DNA from: Polytrichum commune
Lineage: Eukaryota; Streptophyta; Polytrichopsida; Polytrichales; Polytrichaceae
Direction of reading: 5' to 3'
NCBI GenBank assembly: GCA_950295325.1
Contig: OX485806.1
Span: 57,407,169-57,471,168, forward strand
DNA: 64,000 nt
The notes below the pieces were generated by a model. The model saw only the letters and a list, made by a program, of their open reading frames with translations, had not been told where the DNA came from and searched no databases. Each line of letters starts with the position of its first letter. Within the stretch, counting starts at the first letter, position 1. Shown one piece after another: positions 30,647 through 59,645 of this stretch. The position numbers were made by a program, and so were the translations under genes.

Positions 30647-30651
30647 GGAAA

Positions 30652-37697: not shown

Positions 37698-37751
37698 GGA
37701 TCGCAATCCATGGACATCATGCTATCGGAGGAGCCCTCAATGGAGGAACAT
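37698..37751 (+). pseudogene. ParB-MTase copy E, exon 2 (first half)
   Basis: Follows acceptor TGTACAG at 37697 and reads GSQSMDIMLSEEPSMEEH in phase with exon 1. It is interrupted by a solo LTR at 37752. The second half is at 59937-59960. Confidence 0.7.
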
Positions 37752-38439
37752 TGTCGCAACCCTTGCTAGCCCCCCTTGACAATCTTGCCAATTTTCAATT
37801 CTAGCAAAGGTTACAAGCGCTAACCATTTGCATTCCGCCATGCTAATAGTTAGCTCCTCCTACCCCGGACCTTAAAGTTCATAGGAGGGAACCAACCCTC
37901 CTACTTTGCTTTTGGGACTCACCCCTTAATCGGTAACCCATTCCTAGATGTGGACTTCCATCCATGGAAGTCCAATCCCTTGTTGATCATCGTGTTGCCA
38001 GAGCAACACTACAACAACCCGAACCATACTAGACAACTATGGCCTCACATTGGGCCAATCCCATGGAGGCCGTGCCGTTCGGCCTCGGGTGGGTGAGGCC
38101 ACACCACCTCACCCATATAAGCCTCTAGGACTCTACACGGGGCCCCTACCCCACCGTCAACCAACCTCTTGTCTCTCCACCAAAAGTTGGGGCCAAGTAG
38201 ACATTTTCCCTTAGCTGCTGGGCCTAGAAGCCCCAGCAGCTTCAGACCATCATAACTTCCTTGTATGATGTCTGATCATAACAAACGACCCCCCCCCCAT
38301 TGTCATCTACGCTTCACGTACATGCCGATGGACTCCTCACTTGCCCCAATAGGGCAAGTCTTGGGGAAGTTATGCCTGTTTGAACCTTGGCAGTCCCGGG
38401 AATCACTCCCAGGCACTGCTGTACCAGGGCGCTGTCCCG
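37752..38439 (-). mobile_element. solo LTR, first part, split by element B
   Basis: Starts TGTCGCAACCC (LTR reversed) after the duplication AACAT at 37747-37751. Runs to the internal GCGCTGTCCCG, where element B begins. The remainder is at 59646-59931 followed by AACAT at 59932-59936. Confidence 0.9.
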
Positions 38440-38614
38440 GGGGGAAAGTTAGTATGCGAGCGGAGAGCGAAGAGCAGAGAGCGAAGAGCGGAGAACTCAA
38501 TTTGAGACATGATATGAGAGAGAAAATGCACCTATAACCGCGGGATTGAGGGAAAATGGAAGAACTATTTTTAGAAAATGTGGAGAGGTATGGACTCTAT
38601 TACCGTGGAAATAA
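38440..38614. repeat. left end of element B (methyltransferase side)
   Basis: GGGGGAAAGTTAGTATGCGA, then GCGGAGAGCGAAGAGC iterations and a subterminal TACCGTGGAAATA at about 38600. Matches the end of element D at 17206. Confidence 0.8.
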
Positions 38615-40071
38615 AGTAACATTTCCCTATTCATAAAGTTAATAGAGTTTTGAAACATAGAAATATTAAAATAAAATTCAAAATTAGGGCTTACATCACT
38701 ATGACGTTACAATTATAATTACCGAAATGGTGTGCTATATTACATAATACGGTAAATTAAATAATATTTACTATTTGAACGTGACACGAAGGAGGTTGGC
38801 GAAAACAAATCTCCACATACGGTCCACCCTCTATTACTGTTACACCTATAAGTGTTAACCATTTCCAAATGCTTACTTTATTCTACTCCATACATATTGC
38901 ACACTATAAATGTTAAACCTGTTAATTGTTAACAAAATGGTGTTCACTTCTTTGTGAAGTTGACTCTATAAATGTTAACGACTGAAATACATTCATAAAT
39001 ACATGAGGGTTAACAGTATAAGATTTAGAAAGATCTGTTGTCAAGTATCGGACTTGTTTTTGGAGGGGCCTAGACAGATGATAAATCCCATTCGCAAATG
39101 CCCACAACTGGCACATATTCTCCTACCGACGAGTCTGCAAATAAAACTAAACACCTAGCCTACCCAAAAAAACACAAATACAACCTTATGACCAATAAAC
39201 TGAATTCTAAAAAATTCAAAACAGATATCTAAGTTACCACTTGGATTAGCAAACATTGGCAGTGTACTTTACCATTTATTCAACCCAGCATCTGCCTAAG
39301 ATCGCAAGCAATCATTGAAAAAATGTATGAAAACGATAATAGAAGCCATAACCATTATCATCAAGATTGCCTTCTTCATCTGCATCACTATCACCAAGGA
39401 TAGTAATTACGCCTGGCAGGTTCTCAACCTGTATGCCTTCCTCTACCCCCAAGGCTTCCTCCACAATGACAACATCATCAATGTCTTCCTCCTCCACGTC
39501 ATCAACATCAATGTAGACCATTGTGTAATATAGGTGTGCACCTCATATCATTTTTGATAATTGGAATATTGAAAACCACACCACACTTTATAAATCCAAA
39601 TACCAATCAATCAAACCCAAAATCACTCAACCATGAGGTCGTCACTACTAGATTCCCTACTTCCAAAGATACTACCCTCATGGCCGCCCTCATTTTGTTA
39701 ATTGTTAACAAAATGGTGTTCCCTTCTTTGTAAAGTTGAATCTATAAATGTTAACGACTGAAATACATTCATAATTCACACATGATTTGTAAACTTGATA
39801 TTGAATAAAGTTTTGATTGGGTTTGCAATTTTGTGTATGGTATTCTCTCAGAATTATTCTTCACAATTGCTTATAGTTAAGACATGTTAAGATTTGTATA
39901 TTGCTCAACATTTGAGGGTGAACATTATAGATGGTGATCAAAAATGAAGAATGCAATGCGGGAACAACGAAAAGATGCATTCAATGAGATAATTGGAATA
40001 TTGAAATCCACACCACACTTTATAAATCCATATACCGATAAATCAAACCAACAAATCAATCAAACCCAAAA
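38615..40071. repeat. 3' flank of ParB-MTase B with a tandem duplication
   Basis: Two imperfect copies of one block: TTAATTGTTAACAAAATGGT with GTTAACGACTGAAATACATT at about 38924-39010 and again at 39697-39775, and the 3' end of the gene (CACTCAAC-ATGAGGTCGTCA, CTAGATTCCCTACTTCCAAA) at 39620-39690 and 40070-40140. So the last exon tail is present twice. No RNA gene is seen. Confidence 0.7.
39312..39521 (-). CDS. small acidic ORF, unrecognised
   Basis: 69 codons, beginning MVYIDVDDVEEEDIDDVVIV and rich in Asp/Glu. It lies downstream of the ParB-MTase B stop on the same strand, inside the duplicated block. Acidic tails also end the ParB-MTase proteins of copies A and B, so this may be a detached or alternative last exon. 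It could equally be chance. Confidence 0.25.
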   Translation of the reverse strand: MVYIDVDDVEEEDIDDVVIVEEALGVEEGIQVENLPGVITILGDSDADEEGNLDDNGYGFYYRFHTFFQ

Positions 40072-43000
40072 TCACTCAACAATGAGGTCGTCAATACTAG
40101 ATTCCCTACTTCCAAAGATACTACCCTCATGGCCGCCCTCATCTGAAGTGGAATCTAAGCTATGGCACTCATTATCCACCTCCGCAGAAAGGTCGAAGAA
40201 GTCTAAGGCACGGGGGTCATAACCCGGAGACGGAGTACTAGCTTCGGTAGGAGAAGGTTGTGCCGCTAGTACCATCGCCATATCATGGGCATAGATAGGC
40301 AATGTGAAACCCATGGTGGGAGTACCCAACACATCCGCACCAACGCCAAGTCTAAAAAAAAACACGAAAATTGTAAGAAAGAGGATGGAAAGTGTAAAAG
40401 CCGAATGGACAAGGAAAATAAGCGAAGAAGGTCATCATATTCACTTACTGCGAGGGCTCTGGCCTCGATCGCTTCAAGGCCGGCTGCCTCTTCTGCGTGC
40501 CTTGTGTAGCCTGCGTGGGAGCAACAACAATGGATGGAGCCTTCACCGCAGGCTGAACACTCTTGAGTGGCTTAAGGACACGGTTGAAGGTGTCCTCGTC
40601 CTCCTCAAGAGCAACGACATGGCGCCCAAGCTGCCTGCATGCATGGATACAAGTCCCTGTTGCAGAGTAAGCCACATTTCAGTCAACCCCCTTACTCAGT
40701 TAGCCACAAAATCAACATTTCAGACCTCATTCAAGGCCTAACTAAGGCCACATTTCAGACAGCCCCCTTACTCAGTTAGCCACAAAATCAACACTTTGAG
40801 CCTAATTCAAGACCTAACTAAGCCACATTTAAGTCAGCCCCCTTACTCAGTTACCCACAAAATCAACCCATCAGACCTCATTCAAGGCCTAACTAAGGTT
40901 ACATTTCAGTTTGCCCCCTTACTCAGTTAGCCACAAAATGAACACTTTGAGCCTAATTCAAGACCTAACTAAACCACATTTAAGTCAACCCCCTTACTCA
41001 GTTAGCCACAAAATCAACACTTTGAGCCTCATTAAAGACCTAACTAAGCCACATCAAAGTCAGCCCCTTACACAGATAGCCACAAAATCAACACTGTGAG
41101 CCTAATTGAAGGCCTAACTAAGGCCACATTTTAGTCAGCCCCTAACACAGATAGCCACAAAATCAGCACTGTGAGCCTAATTCAAGAACCAACTAAGGCC
41201 ACATTTCAGTCAGCCCCTTACTCAGTTAGCCACAAAATCAACAATTTGAGCCTCATTAAAGACCTAACTAAGCCACATTCCAGTCGGCCCCTTACTCAGT
41301 TAGCCACAAAATCAACATTTTGAGCCTAATTGAAGGCCTAACTAAGGCCACATTTCAGTCAGCCCCTAACACAGATAGCCACAAAATCAACACTGTGAGC
41401 CTAATTCAAGAACCAACTAAGGCCACATTTCAGTCAGCCCCTTACTAAGTTAGCCACAAAATCAACATTTTGAGCCTCATTAAAGACCTAACTAAGCCAC
41501 ATTCCAGTCAACCCCTTACACAGTTAGCCACACAATCAACATTTTAAGCCTAATTGAAGGCCACATTAAGGCCACATTTCAGTCAATCCACTAGTTCATA
41601 TAGACAAATTTCTAAGTTGTTAGAGGTTCTGAAGTTGGTCTGGGATGCTTTATCGGATCCGACTATGCCCTTTAGGCCTAACTTGAGACCTCACAAACAT
41701 GCACTCCTAAACCATATGGCCAGAAATTAGAATCCCAAAGAACTAACTAAGGCCACATTTCAGTCAGCCCCTTACTCAGTTAGACAAAAAATCAAAACTT
41801 TGAGCCTCATTAAAGACCTAACGAAGGCCACATATCAGTCAACCCACTAGTTCATATAGACAAATTTCTAAGTTGTTAGAGGTTCTGAAGTTGGTCTCGG
41901 ATGCTTTATCGGATCCGACTATGCCCTTTAGGCCTAACCTGAGACCTCAAAAACATGCACTCCTAAACCATATGGCCAGAAATAAGAATCCCTAAGAACT
42001 AACTAAGGCCACATTTCAGTCTGCCCCTTACTCAGTTAGCCAGAAAAACAACACTTTGAGCCTAATTCAAGACCTAACTAAGCCACATTTAAGTCAGCCC
42101 CCTTACTCAGTTAGCCACAAAATCAACACTTTGAGCCTTATTGAAGAGCTAAGTAAGCCATATTTAAGTCAGCATCCTTACTCAGTTAGCCACAAAAACA
42201 ACACTTTGAGCCTAATGGAAGACCTAACTAAGCCACATTTAAGTCAGCCCCCTTACTTAGTTAGCCACAAAATCAACACTTTGAGCCTTATTGAAGAGCT
42301 AAGTAAGCCATATTTAAGTCAGCCCCCTTACTCAGTTAGCCACAAAATCAACATCTCAGACATCATTCAAGAACTAACTAACGCCACATTTCAGTCAACC
42401 CACTAGTTCATATAGCCAAATTTCTAAGTTTTTAGAGGTTCTCAACTTGGACTTGGATGCATTGTCGGATCCGACAATGCCATTTACGCCTAACCTGAGA
42501 CCTCACAAACATGCACCCCTCATGTCGCAACCCTTGCTAGCCCCCCTTGACCATCTTGCCAATTTTCATTTCCTAGCAAAGGTTACGAGCGCTAACCCTT
42601 CGCATACCGCCATGCTAATGGTTAGCTCCTCTCACCCCGGACCTTATAGTTCATAGGAGGGGAACCAACCCTCCTACTTTGCTTTCGGGACTCACCCCTT
42701 CAATCGGTAACCAACCCCGTTAATCGGTAACCAATCCTTAGATGTGGACTTCCATCCATGGAAGTCCAATCTTATGTTGATCATCGCGTTGCCGGAGCAA
42801 CACTACAACAACCCGAACCATACTAGGCAACTATGGCCTCACATTAGGCCAATGCCAATGGAGGCCGTGCCGTTCGGCCTCGGGTGGGTGAGGCCACACC
42901 ACCTCACCCATATAAGCCTCTAGGACTCTACGCGGGGCCCCTACCCCACCGTCAACCAACCTCTTGTCTCTCTACCAAGAGTTGGGGCCAAGTGGACATT

Positions 43001-46000
43001 TTCCCTTAGCTGCTAGGCCTAGAAACCCCCCAGCAGCTTCAGACCATCATAACTTCCTTGTATGATGTCTGATCATAACAACCAACCACTCCATCTTCAT
43101 CTACGCTTCACGTAGATGCCGATGGACTCCTCACTTGCCTCATTCAGGCAAGTCTTGAGGAAGTTATGCCTATTTGAACCTTGGCAGTCCCGGGAATCAC
43201 TCCCAGGCACTGCTGTACCAGGGCGCTGTCCCGGGACAGCGCCCCACTCAAATGGCCATAACTCCTAGCTCACACCTCCAATTGAGGTGTTCTTGAGCAT
43301 TCTAGAATCACCATGCCATGAGCAACGCATAGCTCATGGCCTTACCCTCATGCCTCCTAGTCTCCGTGGGTGGGAGGCGTTCCCAACGCCCGGGGCCCTC
43401 ACCCACACTAGGATCACTTGGGCCCTCTCACCAACGGCGCCACAAGTCCCGGGTGTCACTCCGGGGTCCCCCTTGTGCCCATGGTGTTTCGGGCACTCCT
43501 CATGGAGAGGTGCGCGACACCTCAACCATATGGCCAGAAATTTGAATCCCTAAGATCTACCTAATGCCTCATTTCAGACAGCCCCCTTACTCAGTTAGCC
43601 ACAAAATCAACACTTTGAGCCTCATTAAAGACCTTACTAAGCCACATCAGAGTCAGCCCCTTACTCAGTGAGCCACAAATTGAACATCTCAGACCTCTAA
43701 CATCTAAGGCCAGATTTAAGTCAACCAACTAGTTCATATAGCCAAATTTCTAAGTTTTTAGAGGTTCTCAACTAGGAATTAGGACATACCAATGCCCGCA
43801 TTAACGTCCACCACAACCTGTCCAATGTCCGTAGTGGCCATTATCAAGGAGGACATGAAAGCAACATCTTTCTCACGGGGACCACGCCAAGCTTTGGAGC
43901 CGTCCATGAGAGGAGTTGCGGTATAATTCATAATCGCATCATCCATGTCGAGCTCAATGCCAAGAGCCTTGAGCTCATTGGCATCGCGAAGTCGAAATGA
44001 CGAGTGCCGCGGCCGCTTATCAAGGTCGGATCCAATTGTTTTGGTGGCACGAACAAGTAGTACAACCTGGAAGAGGTTGGTGGTCTTGTCCTTATGCTTA
44101 GCTGAAGATAGGCGAAGACGGTTGACTCCCAGCCACTCCTTGAAGATCGTGAACCCAAAAGCAGCAAAGTGGTCTTCAATGCTCTCCCTAAAGTCACCAT
44201 TGTCATCAGGATGAAAGAGGAGGAGAGCTCCATCGTCATGCAGGATCTCATCCGCAAAATCAAAGAGCTCACCTAGAAAATCGCTATCCAATGCATTCCA
44301 CGAAGGTACACTATAGGAAGGATGGGAGACATTAGGTACAGGCAGGTTCTCCGGGATGTCGGCAATGACAAGATCAGCCATGCCCACATCTGACCTCGCA
44401 ACACCTAGAGCTCTCTTGGGATGGGAGGGTGGAAGAGAAAGAATGAAGTTTGAAATCTCATGAAAATGACGACGTTGATGAACAATGGAGGAATTCAACA
44501 TGAATTCTGAAACAACGGGAGGACGCCTAACAGATGAAAGAATGGGCGGAGGAGGCGGCCTGGATAGAGTAGGTAATTCACTTAGAGTTGCAGTGGATGC
44601 AACTGCCGCCTCAGGTGAAGCAGGGGGAGGGGGATCATCCTCCACAGGCTTGAGCTTCCTCGCGCGCTTCTTGAGTGATGACTCGTCTTGAGTCGCACGC
44701 TTCCTCCTCTTGGACTTCTGAGTGTTGGGCTCATCGAGAGTCGCAACAACCTCATCCACCTCCTAAAGCTCACTCTCTAGAAGAACAACCTCATCGCTTT
44801 GAGCAGGAGGCAGGTTCAGCTCTCCACCGGAGAGGCGAATCTTCAACTCCGCCTCCTCATCCGGTTGCCACGTCTTCTTACATTCCAAGTACCAGCAACA
44901 CTCGCGGAGATGCGGGAGGGAAAAGTTGCGTTTTTGAGCCGGGGAAAAAACGAATGTGGGTGAAGAGGAATCTGACCATGCGTCTAGAAATGGAGGGAGC
45001 TTCTTCAAAGCCTTCTTCTTGAAAAGCTCATGCTTGATGTACCTTCACAACCAAGGAGTGAGGCCAATCAACAACTTATAAAAGAACTAACGTATCGAAA
45101 GATTAAGTGATTGAGACTTCCTCACACCTCATTCAGACCTCGCAAACTAGGACCTCTAAATGATATGGCCAGAAATTTAAATACTTAGTACTTAAGTAAG
45201 CCACATTTCATTCTGCCCCGTTACTCAGTAAGCCACAAAATCAACAATTTGAGCCTACCTAAAGGCCACATGAAGGCCACATTTCAGTCAACACACTAGC
45301 TAATATAGCCAAATTTCCAAGTTTTTATAGGTTCTGAAGTTGGTCTCGGATGGTTTATCGGATCCGACAATGCCCTGTAGGCCCCCACCCTGAGACCTCA
45401 CAAACATGCACCCCTCAACCATATGGCCAGAAATTTGAATCCCTAAGAACTAACTAATGCCTCATTTCAGTCTGCCCCTTACTCAGTTAGCCACAAAATC
45501 AAAACTTTGAGCCTCATTGAAGACCTAACTAAGGCCACATTTCAGTCAGCCCCTTATTCAGATAGCCACAAAATCAACACTATGAGCCTAATTCAAGAAC
45601 TAACTAAAGCAAGATTACAGTCAACACCTTACTTAGTTAGCCACATAATCAACACTTGGAGCCTAATTGAAGGCCTAACTAAGGCCACATTTCAGACAAC
45701 CCCTAACATAGATAGCCACAAAATCAACATTGTGAGCCTAATTCAAGAACCAACTAAGGCCACATTTCAGTCAACCCACTAGCTAATATAGCCAAATTTC
45801 TAAGTTTCTAAAGGTTCTGAAGTTGGTCTCGGATGCTTTATCGGATCCGACAATGCCCTTTAGGCCTTACCTGAGACCTCACAAACATGCACCCCTCAAC
45901 CATGTGGCCAGAAATTTGAATACTTAGTACCTAACTTAGCCCACATATAAGTCAACTCACTTATGGAGTTAGCCACAAAATGAATTTTTCAGACCTCATT

Positions 46001-49000
46001 CAAGGCCACACTAAGCCAACTTTCTAAGTTTTTAGAGGTTCTCAACTTCGTCTTGGATGCTTTGTCGGATCCGACAATGCCCTTTAGGCCTAACCTGAGA
46101 CCTCACAAACATCCACCCCTCAACCATATGGCCAGAAATTTGGATTATAAAGACCTAACTAAGGCCACATTTCAGGGTGCCCCTTACTCAGTTAGCCACA
46201 AAATCAAAACTTTGAGCATCATTAAAGACCTAACCAAGGCCACATCAAAGTCAGCCCCTACCTCAGATAGCCAGAAATCAACACTGTGTGTCGCGCACCT
46301 CTCCATAAGGAGTGCCCGAAACACCATGGGCACAAGGGGGACCCCGGAGTGACACCCGGGACTTGTGGCGCCATTGGTGAGAGGGCCCAAGTGATCCTAG
46401 TGTGGGTGAGGGCCCCGGGCGTTGGGAACGCCTCCCACCCACTGAGACTAGGAAGCATGAGGGTAAGGCCATGAGCTATGCGTAGCTCATAGCGTGGTGA
46501 TTCTAGAATGCTCAAGAACACCTCAATCGGAGGTGTGAGCTAGGAGTTATGGCCATTTGAGTGGGGCGCTGTCCCGGGACAGCGCCCTGGTGCAGCAGTG
46601 CCTGGGAGTGACTCCCGGGACTGCCAAGGTTCAAAGAGGCATAACGTCCTCATAACTTGCCGAAATGGGGCAAGTGAGGAGTCCATCGGCATCTATGTGA
46701 AGCGTGGATGGAGATGGAGGGGTTGGTGGTTAGCATCAGACATCATACAAGGAAGTTATGATGGTCTGAAGTTGCTGGGGGGTTCTAGGCCCAGCAGCTA
46801 AAGGAAAATGTCCACTTGGCCCCAACTCTTGGTAGAGAGACAAGAGGTTGGTTGACGGTGGGGTAGGGGCCCCGCGTGAAGTCCTAGAGGCTTATATGGG
46901 TGAGGTGGTGTGGCCTCACCCACCCGAGGCCGAACGGCAAGGCCTCCATGGGCATTGGCCCATTGTGAGGCCATAGTTGCCTAGTATGCTTCGGGTTGTT
47001 GTAGTGTTGCTCCGGCAACGCGATGATCAACATAGGATTGGACTTCCATGGATGGAAGTCCACATTGGGGAAATGGGTTACCGATTAAGGGGTGAGTCCC
47101 GAAAGCAAAGTAGGAGGGTTGGTTCCCTCCTATGAACTATTGGTCCGGGGTAAGAGGAGCTATCCATTAGCATGGCGGAATGCGAATGGTTAGCGCTCGT
47201 AACCTTTGCTAGAATTGAAAATTGGCAAGATTGTCAAGGGGGGCTAGCAAGGGTTGCGACACTGTGAGCCTAATTCAAGAACTAACTAAGGCCACATTTC
47301 AATCAGCCCTTTACACAGTTAGCCACAAAATCAACAATTTGACTGTTACTGAAGGCCACATTAAGGCCACATTTCAGTCAACCCACTAGTTCATATTGAC
47401 AAATTTCGAAGTTATTAGAGGTTGTGAAGTTGGTCGCGGATGCTTTGTCGGATCCGACAATGCCCTTTAGGCCCAACCTGAGACCTCACAAACATGCACC
47501 CCTCAACAATATGGCCAGAAATTTGGATTCCCAAGAACTAACTACTGCCACATTTCAGGCTGCCCCTTACTCAGTTAGCCACAAAATTAAAACTTTGAGC
47601 CTCATGAAAGACATAACCAAGGTCACATTAAACTCAGTTCCTTACTCAGTTAGCCACAAAATCAATATTTTGAGCCTAATTGAATGCCACATTAAGGCCA
47701 CATTTCAGTCAACCAACTAGTTCATAAAGCCAACTTTCTAAGTTTTTTAGAGGTTCTCAACTTGGTCTTGGATGCATTGTCGGATCCGACAATGCCCTTT
47801 AGGCCTAACCTGAGACCTCACAAACATGCACCCCTCAACCATATGGCCAGAAATTTAAATACTTAGTACATAACTAAGGCCACATTTTAGTTAGCCCCCT
47901 TAATCAGGTAACCACAAAATCAACATTTCAGAACTCATTAATGGCCACACTAAGGCTACATTTAAGTCAACCCACTAATTCATATAAACAAATTTCTAAG
48001 TTTTTAGAGGTTCTCAACTTTGTCTCTTATGCTTTGTCGGATCCGACAATGCCCTTTAGGCCCAACCTGAGACCTCACAAACATGCACCCCTCAACAATA
48101 TGGCCAGAAATTTGAATCCATAAGATCTAACCAAGGCCACATTAAAGTCAGCCCCTTGCTCAGTTAGCCAAAAATTCAACAATTTCAGACTTCATTAATG
48201 GCCATACTAAAGCTACATTAGAGGTTCTCAACTTGGTCTTAGATGCATTGTCGGATCCGACAATGACCTTTAGGCCTTACCTGAGACCTCACAAACATGC
48301 ACCCCTCAACTATATGGCCAGAAATTTGGATTATAAAGACCACACTAAGGCCACATTAAAGTCAGCCCCCTTCATCAGTTAGCCACAAATTAAACATTTC
48401 AGACCTCATTAATGGCCACACTAAGGCTACATTTAAGTCAACCCCCTAGTTCATATAGCCAAATTTCTAAGTTTTTAGAGGTTCTCAACTTGGTCTTGGA
48501 TGCTTTGTCGGATCCGACAATGCCCTTTAGGCCTTACCTGAGACCTCACAAACATGCACCCCTCAATCATATGGCTAGAAATTTGAATCCCTAAGAACTA
48601 ACTAATGCCTCATTTCAGTCAGCCCCCTTCCTCAGTTAGCCACAAAATCAACACTTTGAGCCTCATTAAAGACCTAACTAAGCCACATCAAAGTCAGCCC
48701 CTTACTCAGTTAGCCACAAAATCAATATTCTGAGACTCATTCAAGACCACATTAAGGCCATAATTAAGTGAACCCACTAGTTCATATAGCCATTTTCTAA
48801 GTTTTTAGAGGTTCTCAACTTTGTCTCTTATGCTTTGTCGGATCCGACAATGCCCTTTAGGCCCAACCTGAGACCTCACAAACATGCACCCCTCAACAAT
48901 ATGGCAAGAATTTTGGATTCCCAAGAACTAACTACTGCCACATTTCAGGCTGCCCCTTACTCAGTTAGCCACAAAATCAATATTGCAGACCTCATTAATG

Positions 49001-52000
49001 GCCACACTAAGGCTACATTTAAGTCAACCCACTAATTCATATAGCCAAATTTCCAAGTTTTTATAGGTTCTGAAGTTGGTCTCGGATGGTTTATTGGATC
49101 CGACAATGCCCTTTAGGCCCAACCTGAGACCTCACAAACATGCACCCCTCAACCATATGGACAAAAATTTGTATACTTAGTACCTAAATAAGCTACATCT
49201 TAGTCGCCAACTAGCTCACGACGAGCTCTAAAAGGAATAGATTAAATGGTTTTAAATAAATGAGGAGAACAAATGATGTCTCAACTAACGTACCGAAAAA
49301 TTAAGCGCTTGACAATGTTGTCAGAGCCTTTGACATCCTTCCACCACGTCCCCTTTCCGTAGATATCTGAACCTGAAAAGTGACCTATGAACACCTTATC
49401 CCAAAGGTAGATCCACCACTTCTCCAAGTAATATGGCAATGAATCAACTTCGACATCTCCGTCAAGCCCACCCAATGCGTCAAGTATATCAGGTAACTCC
49501 TTGACCACTGCATCCTCAAGCTGTGGATAAATTCAAGGCCAAGATAAGAATCGGCATAGAATGAAGAGTTGATTGGTAAGTAAGGATAAGGAGGATAGAC
49601 GTACCCCTGCCCAGAACGCTGCTTTATTGAGCCAAGGTTTCAAGGTGTCCTCGCTTGCAGGACTTTTGGGGAACCGGATAGCTTCACGATTGAAATTTCC
49701 ACTGTTCCACCACTTTAGCCAACGGACTTTATACTATGGCTCCACAGCAGCTGTGGCAATGAGTTGCAATTTCTCCAATGTCATCTCAATCTTCTTAGAA
49801 TGGTGGCCGCTATAATGCCTAGTAACCTGAAACAAATGTCATCAAAAAAGAAGGCGGAGTAAATTTAATCATGAATTTACGAGAAAGTGCTGAAATGAAT
49901 GCGAGCAATACCGAAGGTATAATTCCGAAGGTTGGTGAGAACCTCTTCCAGGAAGTCTTTTCCAAGGGCCGGGTTTGCGATTGATTGTTGCTTGTTGAAC
50001 TTGTGTCCAAGTTCCTTTGTCGTCTTCTTTATCACAGCGTCCAATACTTCACCCAACCCGTTCCCCGACTGTTCCTCTGGAGGCACTTCCTCCTTGTATA
50101 TTTGGGTAGCCTCATCTACCGCATCGGCTATCTCTTGCTGAACATATATTCTAAATTGTTAGATCACGACTAAAAGTAATGAATGCGAAGTAGAGGGTTG
50201 AGAAATTTGGAGTGACTTACATTGAAAATGAAGGACACCATAAGATCCTGGGTCAGCGGGTACCAAGGGCTCTTGGGGCCTCTGCTCTTGCACGCTTGGA
50301 ATTGCTCCTCGGTCAATAAGGGCTGATAGTAGCTAAGATCATACGAACCGTATTTTTTAATGCGGTGTAGAGTGTGTACGAGGCTAGTTTTAATGTGCGC
50401 GGTTTGGTTAGCCCTGTTGCGGTAGAGACAAATGTCATTAAATGCAAATAAAAAATGAAGGAAACAACGATATGAAAAATTATCATACTTACTTATTGAT
50501 GTCGTGCATTGCGTTAAGGACGTCCCCACGCCCACCCGTTGTGTCCAAGATGACACATTCTGGGCAACCATGCTTCTCGTACGAGAGTGCATCGTCTTTG
50601 TGATCTGTTTCAATACACTCCTTCCAGGCTAACAAGCGATGGTTACCATCATACACAAAGAACATACATCCACTGAGGCTCATCAAGTCTTTATCCTTGC
50701 GCAAAAGAGACTCAAACTTATTATTTTCTGCATTCCATAGGTCTCCCCATTCACGCCTGTCTTTCGCTGAAATGAATCGATTATCTCCGGACTCATTTGT
50801 AGTAGACACATAAAAAGTGGCTGACCCAGCTCGGTATCCAAATTGAAATGCCGACATGAGCTTTGTAATGTTGCTGCGGAAGGTTGGGCGAACCAATGGC
50901 ATGTGAATCAACCTGCACAGGGGGATTCTCATGGAGGACTTTTCCACATGTAGGATTCTCATGCCCTCAACAACTGAAAAGCTATCTTTCTTTAAATTGT
51001 GGCGAATTCGATATTCCATTGCACGAACACCCACATCCGAATCTGCAAGTGAGCCGCAGAGTGGCATCCCGGGTGTCGGCGCCTCGCTACTACCTGGTGT
51101 AAGCCCAGTATTTTGATCACATGACAAGGGAGACCCTTGCTCCCTATGCTCCTCAACACTAAGGGATGACCCAGCGCCAATACGACCCCCAACATCCACA
51201 GACTCACGATCGGCATCCATCTCAACGATCTGCGGACAACCAATTTATTGAAAGAATGAAGAGCATTCAAATGAACCCAACTTACATTACAATCAACCCC
51301 CCAAAATCCTAAAAAATCAAACCTCATTCATGCCACAGTACTGTCAACCCCCTAGTTCAGATAGCCAGAATTCTACGCTTTTAAGGGTTCTTAAAGCTGT
51401 TTCGGAGGCAATGTCGGATCCGACATAGCCCTTAAAGCCTAACCTAACACCAAACAAATATGGACAACTATACCATATGGCCAGAAATTTGAATAGTTAG
51501 TACCTAACTATGCCCACATTTCAGTCAGCCCACTTATAGAGTTAGCCACGAACTCAACATTTTGAGCCTCACTTAGGACACACTAATGCCTCATCTCAGA
51601 CGCCCCCTAGTTCATATAGCCAAATTTCTAAGTTTTTAGAGGTTCTCAAATTGGTCTTGGATGCTTTGTCGGATCCGACAATACCATTTAGGCCTAAGCT
51701 GAGACTTAACAAACATGCACCCTCAACAGTATGGCCAGAAATTTGAAAACTTAGTACATAACTAAAACCACATTCAAGTCAGCCCCCTTACTCAGTTAGC
51801 CACAAAATCAATATTCTGATCCTTATTCCAGACAACATTCAGGCCACATTTAAGTGAACCCACTAGTTCATTTAGCCATTTTCTAACTTTATAGAGGTTC
51901 TCAACTTGGTCTCTTATGCCTTGTCGGATCCGACAATGCCCATTAGGCGTAACCTGAGACCTCACAAACATGCACCCATCAACTATATGGCCAGAAATTT

Positions 52001-53847
52001 GGATTATAAAGACCTAACTAAGGCCACATTAAAGTCAGCCCCCTTACTCAATTAGCCACAAAATCAACATTTCATACCTAAGTAATTGACACACTAAGGC
52101 TACATTTCAGTCAACCCCCTAGTTCATATAGCCAAATTTCCAAGTTTTTAGAGGTTCTCAACTTGGTCTTGGATGCTTTGTCGGATCCGACAATGCCCTA
52201 TAGGCCTTACCTGAGACCTCACAAACATGCACCCCTCAACCATATGGCCAGAAATTTGGATTATAAAGACCTAACTAAGGCCACATTAAAGTCAATTCAC
52301 TTATGGAATTAGCCACAAAATGAATTTTTCAGACCTCATTCAAGGCCACACTAAGCCAACTTTATAAGTTTTTAGAGGTTCTCAACTTGGTCTTGGATGC
52401 TTTGTCGGATCCGACAATGCCCTATAGGCCTTACCTGAGACCTCACAAACATGCACCCCTCAACCATATGGCCAGAAATTTGGATTATAAAGACCTAACT
52501 AAGGCCACATTAAAGTCAATTCACTTATGGAGTTAGCCACAAATTCGACAATTTCAGCCTCATTCAAAACCTAACTAAGGCCACATCAAAGTCAACCCCT
52601 ACTCAGTTACCCACATTCCAAGTATTGTGAGGTTCTCAGGCTGGTCTTGGATGCTTTGTCGGATCCGACAATGCCCTCTAGGCCTAACCTGTGGCCTCCC
52701 AAACATGCACCCCTCAACCACATGGCCAGAAATTTGAATCCCTAAGTACTAACTAAGGCCATTTCAGTCTGCCCCCTTACTCAGTTAGCATGAAAATGAA
52801 CACTTTGAGCCTCATTAAAGACCTAACTAAGCCACATCTAAGTCAGCCCCTTACTCAGTTATCCACAAAATCAACATCTCACACCTCATTCAATAACTAA
52901 CTAAGGCCACATTTAAGTCAACCCACTATTTCATGTAGCCAAATTTCTAAGTATTTAGAGGTTCTCAACTTGGTCTTCGATGCTTTGTCGGATCCGACAA
53001 TGCCCTTTAGGCCTTACCTGAGACCTCACAAACAAGCACCCCTCACTTCATATGATGACTACATAATTCATATAACCACAAAATAAACCTTTTTGACCTC
53101 ACCTGAGACCTCTCCACGAGGCGACCACTGCCCTCCCCTCGAATCCCTCCCCCTCTCCAAATTGAGGCTGCAACCTTGAACTCTGTGTTCACTCCTCGTA
53201 TTTGGAGGAATACCCTATTTTTGAGGTTTGTTGTAATGCGGGGAACGATGGTATGTTACTGTTGCGTCAGTCTTGTTCCCTTCCTCTTCCGAGTCATTGT
53301 GACCACCCTTTGCATTGTGAGTGCTTCCACATGCCCACACTTGCTGCCTTGTTTACCTCACGATTACTACCCCTAATTTCTAGTGCATATATATTAACAA
53401 TGTCTAGTGCCAAACTTGCAATGATACGACAAAGCATCGAAAATATCATTACTCGAATGCATAGGATAGTTTCCTCTCATGCCATAATGTTTCCTTTCAA
53501 GCCAACTATACACGGGACTCATAAAATTTAAATAAATTCAAACTAAATGTAATGTAAGCAGAGCATACCTTAATTTCTTCATTGTCCAAGGAGGTGTCTT
53601 CCTCTCCTAATGAGAATAACCTAATGGGAGCAACCTCCGCCTTTTCAAATGACTCAACATTTCGTTTTGAACGACTGTGATTAGCTTTTGTTGAATTATC
53701 CCCTTTTCTTCCCATGGTTGACCTCAATTTGTACAGGGTCACTACCTTATCTATAGTAGCGAACCTCTCCTTTCTCTCAATGCGCCTCTGTTTCTCATTA
53801 GTCTTCCTCTCTTCTCGATCTGCTCTCGCTCTTGACCGAGTGTTCAT
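40072..53847 (-). CDS. ParB-like / DNA methyltransferase-like gene, copy B
   Basis: Best preserved copy, about 1,200 residues, minus strand. Exons: 53847-53569, 51229-50493, 50413-50221, 50137-about 49912, 49826-49605, 49520-49294, 45042-43790, 40656-40449, 40351-40072. Exon 1 is basic (NTRSRARADREERK). The second exon holds the ParB-like domain: MRIPLCRLIHMPLVRP, FGYRAGSATFYVST, and FFVYDGNHRLLAWKE. Exons three to six are helical. The long 43790-45042 exon has a Lys/Arg then Pro-rich linker, then a beta-class methyltransferase: MADLVIADIPENL (motif IV place, DIPE instead of DPPY), DFADEILHDDGALLLFHPDD, TTNLFQVVLLVRATK, WRGPREKDVAFMSSL and VVVDVNAGIG, completed across an intron by GTCIHACRQLGRHVVALEED (motif I). 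Ends TGA. Two TAG codons (49734-49736, 44763-44765) lie in otherwise continuous frame. The border near 49912 is uncertain. Confidence 0.8.
40660..42522. repeat. family-3 minisatellite, third block, part 1
   Basis: About 75-bp units (GCCACATTTCAGTCAGCCCC, TTACTCAGTTAGCCACAAAA, TCAACACTTTGAGCCT) with longer segments bearing TCGGATCCGA palindromes at about 41654, 41909 and 42465. It lies in the intron that splits motif I of ParB-MTase B. Confidence 0.92.
42523..43519 (-). mobile_element. solo LTR with 5-bp duplication CCTCA
   Basis: 997 bp, reversed (TGTCGCAACCC to GTGCGCGACA), flanked by CCTCA at 42518-42522 and 43520-43524. It has the 24-bp perfect palindrome centred on TCCCGGGA and was used here as the uninterrupted reference for the copy split by element B. 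Confidence 0.92.
43520..43785. repeat. family-3 minisatellite, third block, part 2
   Basis: Continuation of the array after the LTR, ending beside the donor GTATGT (43789 on minus) of the exon that ends in VVVDVNAGIG. Confidence 0.85.
45110..46288. repeat. family-3 minisatellite, second block, part 1
   Basis: Same monomer and palindrome segments (TCGGATCCGACAATGCCCT near 45358, 45840, 46066). Lies in the intron between the 49294-49520 exon and the 43790-45042 exon of ParB-MTase B. Confidence 0.92.
46289..47261 (+). mobile_element. solo LTR with 5-bp duplication CTGTG
   Basis: 973 bp, TGTCGCGCACC to GGTTGCGACA, flanked by CTGTG at 46284-46288 and 47262-47266. Inserted in the family-3 array of ParB-MTase B. 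Confidence 0.92.
47262..49260. repeat. family-3 minisatellite, second block, part 2
   Basis: Array continues with palindromes TTGTCGGATCCGACAA near 47447, 47777, 48037, 48250, 48508 and 48838 and a mutated one near 49093. Spacer text ACCTGAGACCTCACAAACAT, GCACCCCTCAACCATATGG is strongly conserved between units. Confidence 0.92.
51300..53115. repeat. family-3 minisatellite, first block (intron 1, copy B)
   Basis: Seven palindromes (51414, 51667, 51922, 52179, 52404, 52660, 52987), each GTCGGATCCGAC or longer, in the same repeat text as the other two blocks. Fills most of intron 1 between exon 1 (53569-53847) and the ParB-domain exon (50493-51229). Confidence 0.92.
53116..53568. other. 5' part of intron 1, copy B
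   Basis: Unique intronic sequence between donor GTATGC (53568 on minus) and the array. No gene is recognised; frames here are short and unsupported. Confidence 0.4.
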
Positions 53848-54420
53848 CTCTAACCATGCTCAAGCATCTATGCGCCATCATTATGTTCCTATTGTTTTGG
53901 ATTTAGATAATTAACCTGCAGTTTCCTTATTTATTCCTTGGTTTATGCACACTCCATTCAAACACTAAAAAAGGCGCCACTATTGTCTATTCTACCTAAT
54001 CGGTGTCAGCTATATTGTTGTGATTAAGGGATGACTACTATTGTAGTACATCCTATTCATACATGACACTGGTTTTCTAGAATTTACATAAATAACTATT
54101 GATTATTAATTGATCTAGCGGGTTATCATATATTCGGACATTGCAGTCCACCCTAGGTGTATATAATACCCGATTACTTGTACTTGGCTGATATAATTTG
54201 GAGTATCGTGACCTACTTGCCGCTCTCTTTCAGACTCCTTGGTTTAGGGTGTTACACATTTAGAAGTATCATTCATGTTTTCCTTCATAGATCATCCGTC
54301 GTTTGGATCTTGTCCATCATCGTTGTCTTTGGCAATGCATTTCTAATATAAAGGTATCCCACTATGTCGAGAAACCTCTTTCATATTTCCGTCATCGTGC
54401 AAGTCCTCATTCCCCTCATC
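53848..54420. promoter_or_regulatory. divergent promoter region of element B
   Basis: AT-rich space between the ParB-MTase start (minus) and the transposase start (plus), the only place for both promoters. GTGTATATAATA at 54158-54169 is a TATA-like box facing the transposase, about 250 bp before its ATG. No minisatellite here, unlike element E. Confidence 0.4.
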
Positions 54421-57400
54421 ATGGCTCATGTGCCTGCTAACGGAGAAGTGCCCATGGCAATCCTCTATGCTGATGGACAGAGAGTCCCACTTACCTTTCG
54501 GATGGAGGACAGCGGTCTAGCTTACGTGACGTCCCAGCGTTTGAGTAGTCGGTTCGGTTTCAGAGAGGACACTATTAATGTTGAGGAGGATATATTTTTG
54601 ATGTTCTCACGTCAGAACTTACACACACCCTTGGTCGCATTTCGCATCGAGATGAGAACAATAACATGTTTTGGACTCTTCATCCAGGTAGTTACCGAGT
54701 CTATGGCCTCACTGAATCTCAGATGGCTGCTTCTACTGAGATCCTCACTCCTCGCTCTTCCTCTACCTGCACCATTCAAACTCCTATGCCACGTGATGAG
54801 AAGGTCAAGCTCGAGCCCGGTCTCGAGACGCCTATTGTAGAGAACTCTAGAGTAGAATCTGTAATTACGCTTTCTTCCGATGACGAGGTCAGTCCCACCA
54901 AGCCCCCGCCTCAGGTTATAGTTGGTGGGGACCCTCCTAAAGTATATCCTTTGTCGCAAGATACTGTTAGCATAGTACCATTTCTTAAAAAACTTGCAGG
55001 AATGCCTGGGAGAAAAAACATTCTTAAAAAATTAGACTACTCGGTGATTAGACACGAGAGGGTAGACTACCTTCCTGCTGTGTTTGATGGTGCGGTTATA
55101 TTTGAGTTGCCACCCACTGGTCACACGGCCGCACGGTCACAGGCCAAATCAATGCAGGGAATGGACAAGCGATACGACGGCCATGTATGGACGAAGACCA
55201 TCACCACCAACATCACAAACGAATTTGGTTTGTCCTTCCGTTCTTCCGCATGCGTTGGACACCTGCGTTGCAACAACAAGGAGTGCGAATATTTGATCCG
55301 CCGACCTCGCATTTTCCAAGTCAACGAAACAGAGTTTGAAGGTTGTACCTTCCAAGCCTTTGTAGTGGATCGAGCACCCCCCCTGACTCTACGCTTGTTT
55401 GCAAGGTATGTAAAGAGCCCCCAACATGTATTGCTACATGTGGGGCGAAAATTTATTATGTTGCTGGCAAAAACAATCACACAAGAGCGTGCATCCACAT
55501 TGGAACTCACGATCACCCTGTCAAGGTGGGCGACTACAGAGACACTAAGGCTGAGATCAGTGGCCTAATTGAAGAACAGATCGAGAAGACTCCCCAGGCT
55601 ACCAAGAGTGCAGTGGTGCTGGAGGCTAGCAAAGTTCTAATTGGCAATTATCTTCTTCAACCTGATGATGTGCCACCAAAGAAGCTTAGTCTAGAGGAAC
55701 TTGTTCCTGTACTTGACCGATGCAAGGACATGGCTTCCCCGAACATCCGCAACAAGGTCATGAGTTTCCGTTTCCTCAGAAGGTATGGTGTCATGGACTC
55801 TATCACCAAACTTCGCGGAATCAGTTTATGGGCCATTGTTCAGGAGAACAAATTCCTTGGTCAAGGGGCTGATCTTGATAAGGTTTTTGTCTTCAAGATG
55901 TCGGAAGTTGGGCCTGGTAGTGGGGTAGACTTGGTCAAGCGTATGCAGCCCGACGAAGATCTGGAGAATGCTTGGATGATGTTCGACCATGTGAAACGGG
56001 TTAGACAATGGACCACAATGGCATGCCACGTGTATGACTCCATGTATTGTCGTGTCATGACCATTGCAAGCTGTGACATGCAATCGGAGGACTGTGATGC
56101 CCAGATCGTTTTCTGGAAGAATCTCAATGCTGTGATGGAGAGGAATGGTGTTGTCCATACCAACTTCAAGGGTTTCATGGCCGACAGCGCCCAGGCCAAT
56201 TGGAATGAAGTTCGGGTCATATATGGCAACGGGAAGAAGGAGGACCGCATGGATGACCGGGAGAGAACCTGTCAATTTCACTGGACCCAGTCTATGGTTA
56301 AGTATACCGAGAAGTACATTCCCGAAGAATTCAAGGAGCAGCACAAGAAGATGTGCCACCAGTATAGGACGGCGAGGACCATGGACGAAGCAGAGAGTAT
56401 GTACCACGGGCTACATGCATGGTGGGTATCTGCCGGGGCAGTGACAGAGAAGGCCCTAAACAAACTAGAGCTCTGGCTTGCATTCTGGCACTACCGTTAT
56501 CGCCAATGGGGAGGCTTCATGACCGGGGTATGTTTTCCCAATACATTTCATTTTATTTTCATTCTTTTCAATGTGCTCTTATCTCAAACAACTCTTCTGT
56601 AATCTCTAATTGCTTCCAAAAATTTTATCGCAGAAATTTACAGAAGAAGAACTAGCAGAAATGCCTTCATGTAATCTCGCTGAATCAATACACAACAAGT
56701 GGCTTCAAGCCTCTGGGAACAACGGCGGCGACCTCTACGTTGCTACAGTTGACGACTTCGTTCGAGGCTTCCTACAAGTTGTCAATTACACCAGTTCCTC
56801 AAAGGTGACGTGGGCAAAACATGCCCTACAAAGAAAGAGCTGAAACTAAGGATGGCAGAGCGTAGGGCGAAGCAAACAGGTAATCCTTTAGTGCTTGAAG
56901 ACCCCATGATGGACATGCCTGGAGCAGATGAATTTTGTACCCGTATTCCTGGCATGGCTGGAGAAGAGGTATTCGGGTCCTCGAAGCGGAAGGCATATCT
57001 GCCTCTTGGAGCTGAAGAGGAGTCTCATCGGTCTGACAAGGTTAACTTCTCACATCCAAGAGGTTCAGGACGTGCTGTGAGGGCTCATCCTGTGCAGATG
57101 CCCATCATTCTTCAAGATACTGAAGATGATACGATCGTCCAAGATATTCATCATGAGCCTGAGCCTGAGAACATCCCTGCGTCCTCGCCGAACGAGGGGG
57201 GATCCGTCATGTCAGTGTTGTTGAAGAGACAAAGGTTGACGTCAAGGAGTGGCACATATCAAGACTCCCCAAGACCTCGGCGAAGTGCTGCTGGGCCCAG
57301 AGAGCTGTCACGAAGAAGAAGTGTACTGAGAGAATTGTGAGAGGCGCCAATTTCACCGCCGCGCCTACCTACACCGGAGTTTGGACTAATATACGCAGGA

Positions 57401-58119
57401 ACTAATCTGAGAGGACAAAATTCTTCTTCTGCTCCAATGACATTGACCGGTGCGTGAAGGGTACAAGGCGCAAATGGGTTGCTCAGCACTCAGCATACCA
57501 TGAAATGCCGCCGATTCCAGACGTTTGGCCGGTGAAGCTAGGCAAAAACCTCAAGCCTACTGAAATTCTTGCCCTTGAAGCGGCTGGATTCCAGCTCCCG
57601 TTGAAAAAGCCGGTCTCTCCAAGACGTTTGTTCTCTTCTGCTCCGCCGCCTGCAAATCTGAGCGCGGTACCCGTTCCTGCAGAACCAGACCGCTATCCTG
57701 GCAAGAGAGACGACAAGATTGTGAAACGCACTGCCACTCGCCCAAATCCCCCGCAACGACTCTCCATGGCCTCCTCCGACTCTTTGAAAGCTTGCATCCG
57801 TTCCATCAATATGATACCTCATCCAGGACATGGTTGCATTATCGGGTTGGATTCGGGTGTTTCTCCTACCATCACACAGTATCAGGTCACCATCAGTTCT
57901 TTCGTAGGTTGCACTTGCCCTGCATTCAAGAAGACGATGACCAAGTTCCGAGGGAAGACCCAATTCTCTTATTGCAAGCATGTGTATTTCATATTTTTGA
58001 AGGTTTGCAACCGTCATCCCGAGGCCGACCTTTTCATTCACGCGCCTACCTTTAGCTTCAACGAGGTCAAGCTAGTCCTAGAAAGCGGACTCTTGACTCA
58101 CCCTTTGGCTAAAAACTAG
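54421..58119 (+). pseudogene. MULE-like transposase with SWIM finger, copy B
   Basis: Two exons, 54421-about 56527 and 56634-58119. The N-terminus has a beta-rich module (YADGQRVPLTFRMEDSGLAY, FWTLHPGSYRVYGL) not seen in copies A and E. Then ESVITLSSDDE, a SUMO-interacting-type motif; GMPGRKNILKKLDYS; zinc region 1 (SSACVGHLRCNNKECEYL); zinc region 2 (CKVCKEPPTC to ACIHIGTHDHPV); DDE core with VYDSMYCRVMTIASCD, FMADSAQANWNEV, CQFHWTQS; then MPSCNLAESIHNKW with the last acidic residue; CCWAQRAVTKKKC; and a SWIM finger CTCPAF...YCKH near 57910-57980. Broken by single-base shifts near 54655, 55370, 56790 and 57235 and a TAA near 57402. It has TGG where copies A and E have the shared TAG. Ends TAG at 58117. 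Confidence 0.88.
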
Positions 58120-58436
58120 GAGGCAACCTACAAACATCCTAGATTCTTTTCAATGGACGGTGTCCATTCAAAATTCCCTTGTCATTACATGTACTTAGTC
58201 AGCAAGACAATATTCATAATATATTTTTCAATAAAAAGTGTTTTGTCATTCATACTATATAGACTATGCACGGCTACCTAAACCCTTACTAGCAGCTTAG
58301 GCAGAAAATATATATTTACAAGATTGCCTAAATTTTCTGGAAATACATTCAAGCATCAACAATTTAAGATACATGACGTTTCTCTTCGGCCTCTAGCGCA
58401 TTCAAGTGACTCTTCATCTGTAGCTCTACTCCGCAT
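58120..58436. other. 3' spacer between convergent genes, element B
   Basis: AT-rich 3' flank of the transposase with an AATAAAA signal near 58231. No gene is recognised. Confidence 0.4.
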
Positions 58437-58568
58437 AGAATACACAAAATGTAGTGAACTATGAAAGGAATATGGTTGAAAGAGATATGGCCAAATTCGA
58501 GTCATCGAATTTGGACACACCTCTTTCAACCATGTTCCTTTCATAGTTCACTACATTTTGTGTACTCT
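58437..58568. repeat. long near-perfect inverted repeat (64-nt arms)
   Basis: Left arm 58437-58500, four-base loop GTCA, right arm 58505-58568. By eye about 59 of 64 positions pair. The arm text includes ACACAAAATGTAGTGAACTA and GGTTGAAAGAG. It lies between the convergent 3' ends of the transposase and X, so readthrough from either gene would form a long hairpin RNA. It may also be a small foldback element. Confidence 0.85.
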
Positions 58569-58677
58569 TATCTCTTCCGAATCCCTCATTTCCAAGAACC
58601 GTCACCGCCAAAACCAATTGCAATAATTGATTAATATAATAAAGGTATGATTACAATGCTTCCTATGTCTATCAACT

Positions 58678-59133
58678 CTATTTCCGTTTCACATACTTCT
58701 TGGATGAATCCGAGGAAGGTGGACCCGGTCTAAGCAAATTCATATAAGAAAATGTTTTATCTCTCTTTCGATCCTTCAACGGTAGATGATGCGGCGGCAA
58801 GGCTCTCATCCGTTCGCAAAATGAAAGAGACTTCGAAGATTCCCCTACAACCTTCACCTCCTCCTCCTCCGTTTTGTTCGATTTGTCTTCATCCAAATCA
58901 GCGTCCTTCTCCGGCACATCTTCCTACCTCTTTTCTTTTTGCTCCTCCCGCGTCCTCCACCTCCATGCTTGTGTAGACTGCGAAAATGGAGTCAGGTCGT
59001 AGTCATCACTACTTCGATTTCCAGCAGCAAACGAAAATTCCGGCGATAAATTAACCGAAATATGAGGATCTGCTAGACTCCTAATTTCCTTATCCCATCC
59101 TAATCCAACAAACATATCTCTCTCATCACCCAT
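58678..59133 (-). pseudogene. Element-encoded protein X (copy B, one stop)
   Basis: Homologue of 26483-26980: MGDERDMFVGLGWDKEIRSL, FSQSTQAWRWRTREEQKEK, then DADLDEDK, VVGESSKSLSFCERMRAL and a KYVKRK end. A TAG at 58924-58926 interrupts an otherwise continuous frame, just before PEKDADL. The middle is shorter than in copy E. Same convergent position with the transposase and next to the end of the element. The N-terminal ATG at 59133 is chosen by alignment with copy E rather than the longer frame to 59175. Confidence 0.7.
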
Positions 59134-59468
59134 TGTATGCAAATGTATATACAATGATGTTGGGTATGAGTCCAATATATAATCTATTCGGCCACATACG
59201 ATAATTGCTAAAGTCCAAGATATAGAGTAGACTCACATATAAGACAAAGAAAAAAGTGATGAATGAAAACGAAGGAAGTTTATTATTTTGATTCCTTTGT
59301 ATTTTGATTGATTCATTCTTCAATTACACCAATCTCCGAAAATCCATTTTCATTGATTTTTTCTTGTGATCATCCTTGGTTTTAATAATTCAACCACCTC
59401 ACGGTTTCCAAATTTAATGAGACCATTCCAAATTCAGGGCCATATTTTAAATTTTATGACCTATACAT

Positions 59469-59636
59469 CCCACGGAAATAGGTCTAATTTTTTACTATTA
59501 TTGGCAGATTCTGGAATATTCCAAATAGATTATTTTTGTATTTGGAATATCCTAATTTTAGTCTAACAAGTTTACTATTTTTGTCTCATCTACGCTCTCC
59601 GCTCTCCAAATCTACGCTCGCATACAAGTCTCGTCC
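59469..59636. repeat. right end of element B (transposase side)
   Basis: Subterminal CCCACGGAAATAGG at 59469, then CTACGCTCTCCGCTCTCCAA, ATCTACGCTCGCATA, and terminal CAAGTCTCGTCC. Reverse complement matches the left end of element E (24974). Followed by the target copy GCTGTCCCG. Confidence 0.82.
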
Positions 59637-59645
59637 GCTGTCCCG

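Follow-up and report, generated by a model that had tools for sequence, protein, structure and literature searches.

A giant MULE-like transposon family in Polytrichum commune with a resident ParB-like/methyltransferase gene and arrays of palindromes

The 64,000-nucleotide stretch of Polytrichum commune DNA analysed here (the window; C4:57407169-57471168 of a 408-Mb genome, to which all genome-wide searches below refer) contains a complete transposon, element A (Table 1). Sequence comparison makes us almost certain of its anatomy and of the residency of its accessory gene: it belongs to a family of giant DNA transposons of the cut-and-paste type, whose terminal repeats are short and imperfect and whose target-site duplications (TSDs) measure 10 bp. 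The order in the family is a left end (L), a gene joining a ParB-like part to a DNA-methyltransferase-like part (the ParB-like/MTase gene) and read leftward, a palindrome array, a transposase gene read rightward, a small protein X where present, and a right end (R). An earlier note on this DNA had proposed a complete transposon of about 21 kb, and both ends, the duplication and the empty target site uphold it. The palindrome arrays between the genes went unmentioned in that note and are new here.

The bounds of element A were set from sister copies, since the seven other L-R pairs begin with GGGGAAAGT and end with AAGTCTCGTCC. It is these copies that make the case for the ends and not the core GCTCGCATA by itself, which at one mismatch has 11 matches in the window against 6.2 expected and is not special alone. 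The flank reported as shared by both sides is a real duplication, but its length is 10 bp (GCTGTCCCGG) and not 9 bp. As had also been claimed, a long terminal repeat (LTR) becomes continuous once the segment is removed: the 400 nt of joined flank can be aligned from end to end with each of three other LTR copies of the window, with 94.5% (one gap), 92.3% (one gap) and 83.3% identity (two gaps). The two closest of these both lie within introns of element A itself. The element thus has both ends and its TSD, but the ParB-like/MTase gene and the transposase gene of this copy are broken. LTR copies of the same family as the target site occupy about 42600-43520 and 46290-47260 in introns of the ParB-like/MTase gene. 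A perfect 24-bp palindrome, GGGCGCTGTCCCGGGACAGCGCCC, is carried by the LTR at 30927, 43221 and 46564, and it was into this palindrome that element A inserted in the target LTR.

The genome was searched once with the left-end and once with the right-end sequence, and 40 candidates of 688 and 360, respectively, were scored for each. Pairing by strand used the 40 main rows of each end, after 3 and 4 short second pieces had been dropped. Among these best 40 rows per end there are at least seven other same-strand pairs (C1:71.17, C6:6.87, C4:48.73, C2:53.5, C4:30.47, C4:46.2 and C3:8.7 Mb). All seven are flanked by 10-bp TSDs, six exact (that of C1:71.17 being a C-rich run) and one with a single mismatch (C2:53.5); for an eighth left end (C1:7.11) the matches listed include no right end to pair it with. 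A compact subfamily is represented by 25 left ends at 91-94% identity among the matches listed. Nine of its copies were checked for TSDs, one read whole (C4:52561283, L016+L017; 15,392 bp, TSD TAAATGGACA) and eight at their ends, and each has an exact 10-bp duplication. The genome search suggested earlier therefore yielded 16 pairs besides the window, so that 17 of 17 pairs of ends examined carry a 10-bp TSD, 16 of them exact. Paired ends span 15.4 to 111 kb and have TSDs, which rules out an artefact of short elements. Two A-type pairs, 111 kb (C4:46162088-46273260) and 91 kb (C3:8664139-8755528) apart, each appear to be one insertion that nested DNA has enlarged, because each shares a 10-bp TSD.

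The transposase was assigned less readily. The SWIM model PF04434 matched the window sequence with E = 0.0015 and 18.5 bits (cut-off 19.6) and the compact copy with E = 0.14, and it gave no match in L030. PF10551, the model for Mutator-like elements (MULEs), found no match in the transposase open reading frames (ORFs) scanned, and no Pfam MULE model recognises them. None of the 142 listed PF10551 matches in the genome overlaps a listed transposase row, one lying within 5 kb, and hhalign comparison of the transposase with the genome's own MULEs was not significant (the profiles being shallow). The KDZ model PF18758 had no match in the ORFs scanned or in the genome, and control genomes were equally silent. 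Sola1 elements make 4-bp TSDs and EnSpm elements 3-bp TSDs; the 10-bp duplications agree with neither, and their length falls within the 8-11 bp given for MULEs in the accessible part of PMC6446971. We call the family MULE-like, not a MULE, because the TSD fits and the protein models do not; the proposed MULE/SWIM transposase thus keeps its TSD and a weak SWIM match but lacks PF10551. Protein X does lie inside the element, as had been proposed. It sits between the transposase and the right end in A, in A2 (C4:48.7), in C6:6.87, in C2:53.5 and in the group whose transposase ORF is 766 aa long, and it adjoins the transposase in the second window element (open relative at 26483-26980) and in window element B. 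The compact copy has only 0.57 kb from transposase ORF to right end.

In the compact copy the eight exons of the ParB-like/MTase gene join to an open frame of 1096 amino acids (aa), the joins being taken from a reading of splice sites. Element A matches all eight, with in-frame TAG stops at codons 403 and 615. The two copies were compared with our own Nei-Gojobori script for the ratio of nonsynonymous to synonymous change (dN/dS), which post-insertion decay raises. Over the whole gene the ratio was 0.22, with 0.12 in the ParB-like part and 0.24 in the MTase part, and the transposase ORF gave 0.26; the linker (0.54) and the C-terminus (0.77) have few changes each. These ratios indicate that the gene is under purifying selection similar to that on the transposase.

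The gene is found in five divergent groups, down to 32% identity over its first part; those beyond A and the compact copy are L021/L022, L023/L024/L025, window element B and L028/L055. Whole order was read in a sample of 63 of 150 ParB-like rows and 100 transposase rows, and the full L - ParB - transposase - R arrangement was present in the window, C4:48.7 and C1:71.2, and on reading also in C6:6.87. Strand relations were counted over 150 ParB-like rows and 100+91 transposase rows. Among the matches listed, 37 of the 150 have a head-to-head transposase within 15 kb (36 loci, one row being a fragment of another locus), two have the reversed order and none has another strand relation. Absence of a partner from the match lists is no proof of its absence from the genome: four of the 34 A-type rows that lacked a listed partner were fetched, and in three of them a head-to-head transposase lay within 9.4 kb. 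L059 had no transposase within 9.4 kb of its ParB-like row. The A-type copy at C2:53.5 has ends, TSD, transposase, X and eight palindrome sites, but its ParB-like/MTase gene is reduced to the final part, with no match to codons 1-931.

The earlier suggestion of a resident gene between the ends is thus confirmed, and among the rows examined it adjoins the transposase in copy after copy, contrary to the refuting case of a gene found mostly outside such ends; the stronger idea, that it is always there, fails at C2:53.5. Captured genes are common in MULEs according to the accessible text of PMC6446971, and the one copy without most of the gene would fit a chance passenger of the kind found in Pack-MULEs. 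Its identical place and strand in all groups read and the purifying selection on it make that explanation extremely improbable, and we take the gene, on these comparisons, to be a long-resident and constrained part of the element.

Between the two genes lie arrays of TCGG-NN-CCGA palindromes with mirror-symmetric arms that differ between subfamilies. Element A has 17 perfect palindromes of at least 14 bp (15 with one core, 2 from LTRs), where shuffled sequences drawn as first-order Markov samples have 1.2. There are 12 in the compact copy (10 with the core), 31 in L028 and 7-11 in each of L029, L030, L057, L058, L060 and the second window element; none occurs in B, L021 or L022 and one in L023. 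Light-harvesting, true-MULE and window 11-26 kb stretches have one each. The pattern TCGGNNCCGA has 6-32 sites in 13 of the 14 element loci examined (A 19, A2 19, compact copy 11, second window element 27, L028 32, L029 14, L030 9, L066 12, L067 9, L057 9, L058 10, L059 13, L060 6), with at most 0.25 in the shuffles of each, and no site in the light-harvesting and true-MULE control loci. Two other controls, window 12-26 kb (6 sites) and L021-L025 (13 sites), are unclean, both containing pieces of such elements. Sites are confined to the stretch between the ParB-like gene and the transposase except in B, A and A2; 7 of the 19 in A and A2 lie between the genes, the rest being in introns for A. 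In L029, L059, L066 and L067 the fetched DNA consists almost wholly of the intergenic stretch, and site placement there is little informative.

The arms, read as three bases on either side of the core, are TTG/CAA, CTG/CAG, ATG/CAT, CTC/GAG, GCC/GGC, GTT/AAC and TGG/CCA in different arrays and mostly symmetric. For the L021 and L023 groups it was predicted in advance that arrays of perfect palindromes of at least 14 bp would lie between the genes. At L066 this held in a looser form: the first three arm positions are symmetric in 12 of 12 core sites, but the centre is GT in 10 of them, leaving 2 perfect palindromes. Genome-wide, STCGGATCCGAS has 3,993 sites against 21 for a reversed control pattern. 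Its outer bases are symmetric in 3,951 (GTC..GAC 666 and, by subtraction, CTC..GAG 3,285) and asymmetric in 42 (18+24), where about 1,138 asymmetric sites would be expected if the sides were independent. Of the first 50 places listed of each symmetric kind, 45 and 44 (89 of 100) have a listed ParB-like or transposase match on C1 no more than 10 kb away; DNA this close to such a match makes up 1.4% of C1. Some neighbouring repeats were seen as well. Sites of TCGGTTCCGA and TCGGAACCGA form further tandem arrays at 11072-11798 and 18628-19660, probably pieces of other such elements, and at L067:387-804, upstream of the gene of the L023 group, 66-bp units form an array of another palindrome, CGGACGCGCGTCCG.

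The two parts of the accessory protein differ in how well they can be identified. PF01555 (N6_N4_Mtase) recognises the spliced compact protein (29.2 bits, cut-off 26.7, E = 1.1e-6) and stays below its cut-off with an L021-derived row (21.9 bits) and the unspliced window exon (11.9 bits). A three-row profile of the MTase part matched the solved structures of DpnA (2e-8) and CcrM (1.8e-5). A tblastn search of phage sequences with the same part matched 68 records, four of which cover at least 80% at 20-24% identity; one of the four, Javan244, is a ParB_N + N6_N4_Mtase protein, and its alignment sets plant ADLVIADLPENL opposite phage ANLVLTDPPYNV. Active exocyclic-amino DNA methylases have (D/N/S)PP(Y/F/W) as motif IV. 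This was found in none of the eight covering sequences, which read D[IL]PE in seven cases (A, compact, L021, L022, L025, L028 and L029) and DIQE in L023. Conservation is broad in motif I, in the stretch that precedes it and at the acidic residue that follows. The phage methylase LPM4 has DLPF, so Leu is tolerated in motif IV and Glu is the odd residue; methylation is doubtful because this Glu replaces the aromatic residue of DPPY. We take the protein to have the S-adenosylmethionine (SAM) fold but probably not to be an ordinary N6-adenine or N4-cytosine methylase. In the N-terminal part, the stretch M-F-F-V-x-x-G-N-H-R-x-x-A-W is invariant in nine of nine rows and resembles the ParB/sulfiredoxin signature. 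Phage tblastn with this part gave no match, and 30 pattern stretches in viral contigs included no relative. We label it ParB-like and not ParB because the label comes from motif and position, with no significant profile match. The spliced ParB + DNA-methyltransferase gene of the earlier note accordingly stands as an eight-exon gene with PF01555 above its cut-off, but with a motif-based ParB label and an altered motif IV.

Taken whole, the explanation that we favour, with moderate confidence, combines the giant transposon family, its resident gene and recognition of the palindromes by the ParB-like protein. The transposase would recognise the GAGAGCG iterations at the element ends, and the ParB-like protein would bind, as a dimer, the TCGG-NN-CCGA palindromes of the shared promoter region (in A also those of two introns). 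Such binding could allow recognition of the protein's own element and control of both divergent genes, a shield from host silencing, or both. A dimeric protein with subfamily-specific arm contacts would account for the symmetry of the sites, their array form, their place between the promoters and their divergence. ParB-family proteins use palindromic sites, which makes the ParB-like protein the natural candidate among the element proteins predicted to bind them, although we regard this particular link as evenly poised. The MTase part would act as a binding or dimerisation module, or with changed chemistry, either being more likely than ordinary N6-adenine/N4-cytosine methylation because motif I is kept and Glu replaces the aromatic residue of DPPY. 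A bolder version, which we put forward tentatively and think possible but not probable, is a partition-like self-recognition system in which the ParB-like protein with its altered methylase and parS-like arrays would co-evolve. Subfamilies would then be protein-site pairs that tell self from sister, and the system would keep giant elements expressed and unsilenced.

Several observations count against this explanation. The C2:53.5 copy, which is without most of the ParB-like/MTase gene, shows that the gene is dispensable in cis. PF02195 (ParB_N) matched none of five sequences at E up to 1, a profile search of the PDB with the ParB-like part gave two unrelated matches (best E 0.49), and hhalign of this part was not significant, though the motif lines up. 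A PHROG ParB match at the GNHR motif (E 0.29, in one of three sequences) is likewise not significant, and an AlphaFold model from two window rows, with a predicted local distance difference test score (pLDDT) of 31, was too poor to judge the fold. Element B, the exception among the 14 loci, has one TCGGNNCCGA site (7495), outside the presumed intergenic region. None of the nine sites at L067 is symmetric at the first arm position (GTC/CAC and others), and no perfect palindrome of at least 14 bp has a TCGG core, so the prediction failed there as written. The genome-wide symmetry is a description and not a test, since array copies are not independent, and linkage cannot separate the ParB-like protein from X or the transposase because element proteins travel together.

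That shared inheritance is also what gives some room to a different assignment, in which the palindromes are sites of the transposase, of X or of a host factor and the ParB-like/MTase protein does other work such as nicking or blocking silencing. A location in a shared promoter suits any regulator, and DNA nicking has been reported for a Bacillus cereus ParB-methylase in the available part of PMC5512222. The arm differences between subfamilies speak against a single host factor, and the 0.57 kb in the compact copy, which has an array, is too little for a whole X of the usual layout; we find this assignment rather unlikely. The view of the protein as a catalytically active N6-adenine or N4-cytosine methylase that marks its own element DNA can draw on the PF01555 match, on adenine methylases (DpnA and CcrM) as profile relatives and on the conservation in and around motif I. 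The BLAST alignment to Javan244 extends through motif IV, and methylase sites, too, are often palindromic. With D[IL]PE or DIQE, and its odd Glu, in the position of DPPY, we judge ordinary methylation unlikely, somewhat more so than a different binder. Least probable of the three is that expanding arrays produced the palindromes as a structural side effect (hairpin or cruciform), with copying between arms keeping them symmetric. They do sit in tandem arrays, and such DNA has other palindromes (the 24-bp one in the LTR, CGCGCG-centred ones in L067), but a TCGG..CCGA core common to arrays of different unit length and sequence argues against it. Our preferred reading remains that one of the element's own proteins recognises the palindromes, the ParB-like protein being the likeliest.

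The window holds sequence of two more such elements. A solo-LTR-like insert seems to divide the second one and was itself entered by element A, giving three nesting layers. Element B (1-11071, L056) has a ParB-like/MTase gene, X and transposase, and its arrays consist of 64-bp units. Elsewhere, C5:1751760-1846160 (L018-L020) holds a recent tandem array of light-harvesting genes, with 14 matches of equal score over about 95 kb. The genome has 58 matches to the light-harvesting model PF00504, as expected of a land plant or green alga, and in the PDB the neighbours of these proteins after 9vfj are chains of 8htu and 7xqp, from the moss Physcomitrium.

Table 1. Positions of element A, its parts and related features in the window.
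Feature	Position	Strand	Basis or remark
Element A, 21,196 bp, oriented L to R	38441..59636	+	Ends from 7 other paired copies; TSD and empty site
Left 10-bp TSD GCTGTCCCGG	38431..38440	.	Flank comparison
Right 10-bp TSD GCTGTCCCGG	59637..59646	.	Flank comparison
Left terminus, GGGGAAAGTTAGTATGCGAGC and GAGAGCG-type 7-bp iterations	38441..38495	+	
Right terminus, GGACGAGACTTGTATGCGAGC (read inwards) and GAGAGCGG iterations	59585..59636	-	
ParB-like/MTase gene, 8 exons, two in-frame TAG stops	40072..51220	-	Exon match to intact compact copy
Exons of this gene	51220-50493, 50413-50221, 50137-49943, 49826-49605, 49520-49294, 45042-43790, 40656-40449, 40351-40072	-	
ParB-like part, conserved IPLCR...GNHR..AW motif	50493..51040	-	Row alignment; weak PHROG ParB match in compact copy, E 0.29
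MTase-like part: motif IV DIPE, WRGPREK stretch, motif I start	43790..44500	-	Completed by exon 40656-40449
Head-to-head intergenic array, 7 TCGGATCCGA sites, roughly 255-bp units	51411..53000	.	
9 further TCGGATCCGA sites, intron 5	45355..48850	.	
3 further TCGGATCCGA sites, intron 6	41650..42480	.	
Transposase gene, several ORFs, broken in window copy, C-terminal SWIM-like finger	54585..58119	+	
Protein X, small, charged, between transposase and right end, 1 stop in window copy	58681..59133	-	
Second element, transposase half: X (+, 26483), transposase (-, 30566-27512), palindrome array	26483..37700	-	
ParB-like exon, read as other half of second element	60108..60675	+	Split by LTR and element A
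Element B (third), with ParB-like/MTase gene and an L-type end near 11071	4486..11071	+	

In the open-licence literature we found no paper linking a Mutator-like transposon, ParB and methyltransferase, the one article to the point among the top-ranked results being PMC12477816. As described in its accessible part, Sola1-1_Ec32 of Ectocarpus is a 21.5-kb Sola1 element with an antiparallel 1104-aa ParB + MTase gene, and its authors propose, for proteins of this kind, binding to and modification of the transposon that encodes them. The likeness extends to size, to a gene on the strand opposite the transposase, to protein length (1104 aa against 1096 aa in the compact copy) and to ParB-like and N6/N4 methylase domains; the superfamily is another, given the 10-bp TSDs here, and the host is a brown alga and not a land plant. 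The same text says that red- and green-algal transposons carry similar proteins, among them giant EnSpm elements in red algae (PMC12477816). The element is thus not the new kind of autonomous transposon that the earlier note had expected: a ParB-methylase transposon gene is a known concept, met here in a new transposon type and in a land plant. Different transposase types carry a similar accessory gene, which makes this gene likely to be a portable module that serves some function. To the Ectocarpus proposal our comparisons add candidate sites, and they cast doubt on modification in this plant. Among plant elements, the Arabidopsis MULE Hiun (VANDAL) also has extra resident genes, vanB and vanC, one of them anti-silencing; the available description of it (PMC6446971) names no ParB-like or methylase part. 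The protein of Streptococcus phage Javan244 (QBX25231.1) has the same domain order, and the MTase parts share 24% identity over 225 plant residues. Unlike the plant protein, which has neither feature, the 415-aa phage protein matches PF02195 significantly and has DPPY as motif IV. In another Streptococcus phage, Javan575 (L072), the ParB-MTase gene is interrupted in its methylase part by an intein-like insert (Pfam Intein_splicing, Hint_2). Plasmid KorB with its operators and ParB with parS each pair a ParB-family protein with repeated palindromic sites on mobile DNA, a logic similar to that predicted here. The palindrome arrays make the job of the accessory gene concretely testable by asking which protein binds them, and should the ParB-like protein prove to be the binder, a plant transposon would have a parS-like system of its own.

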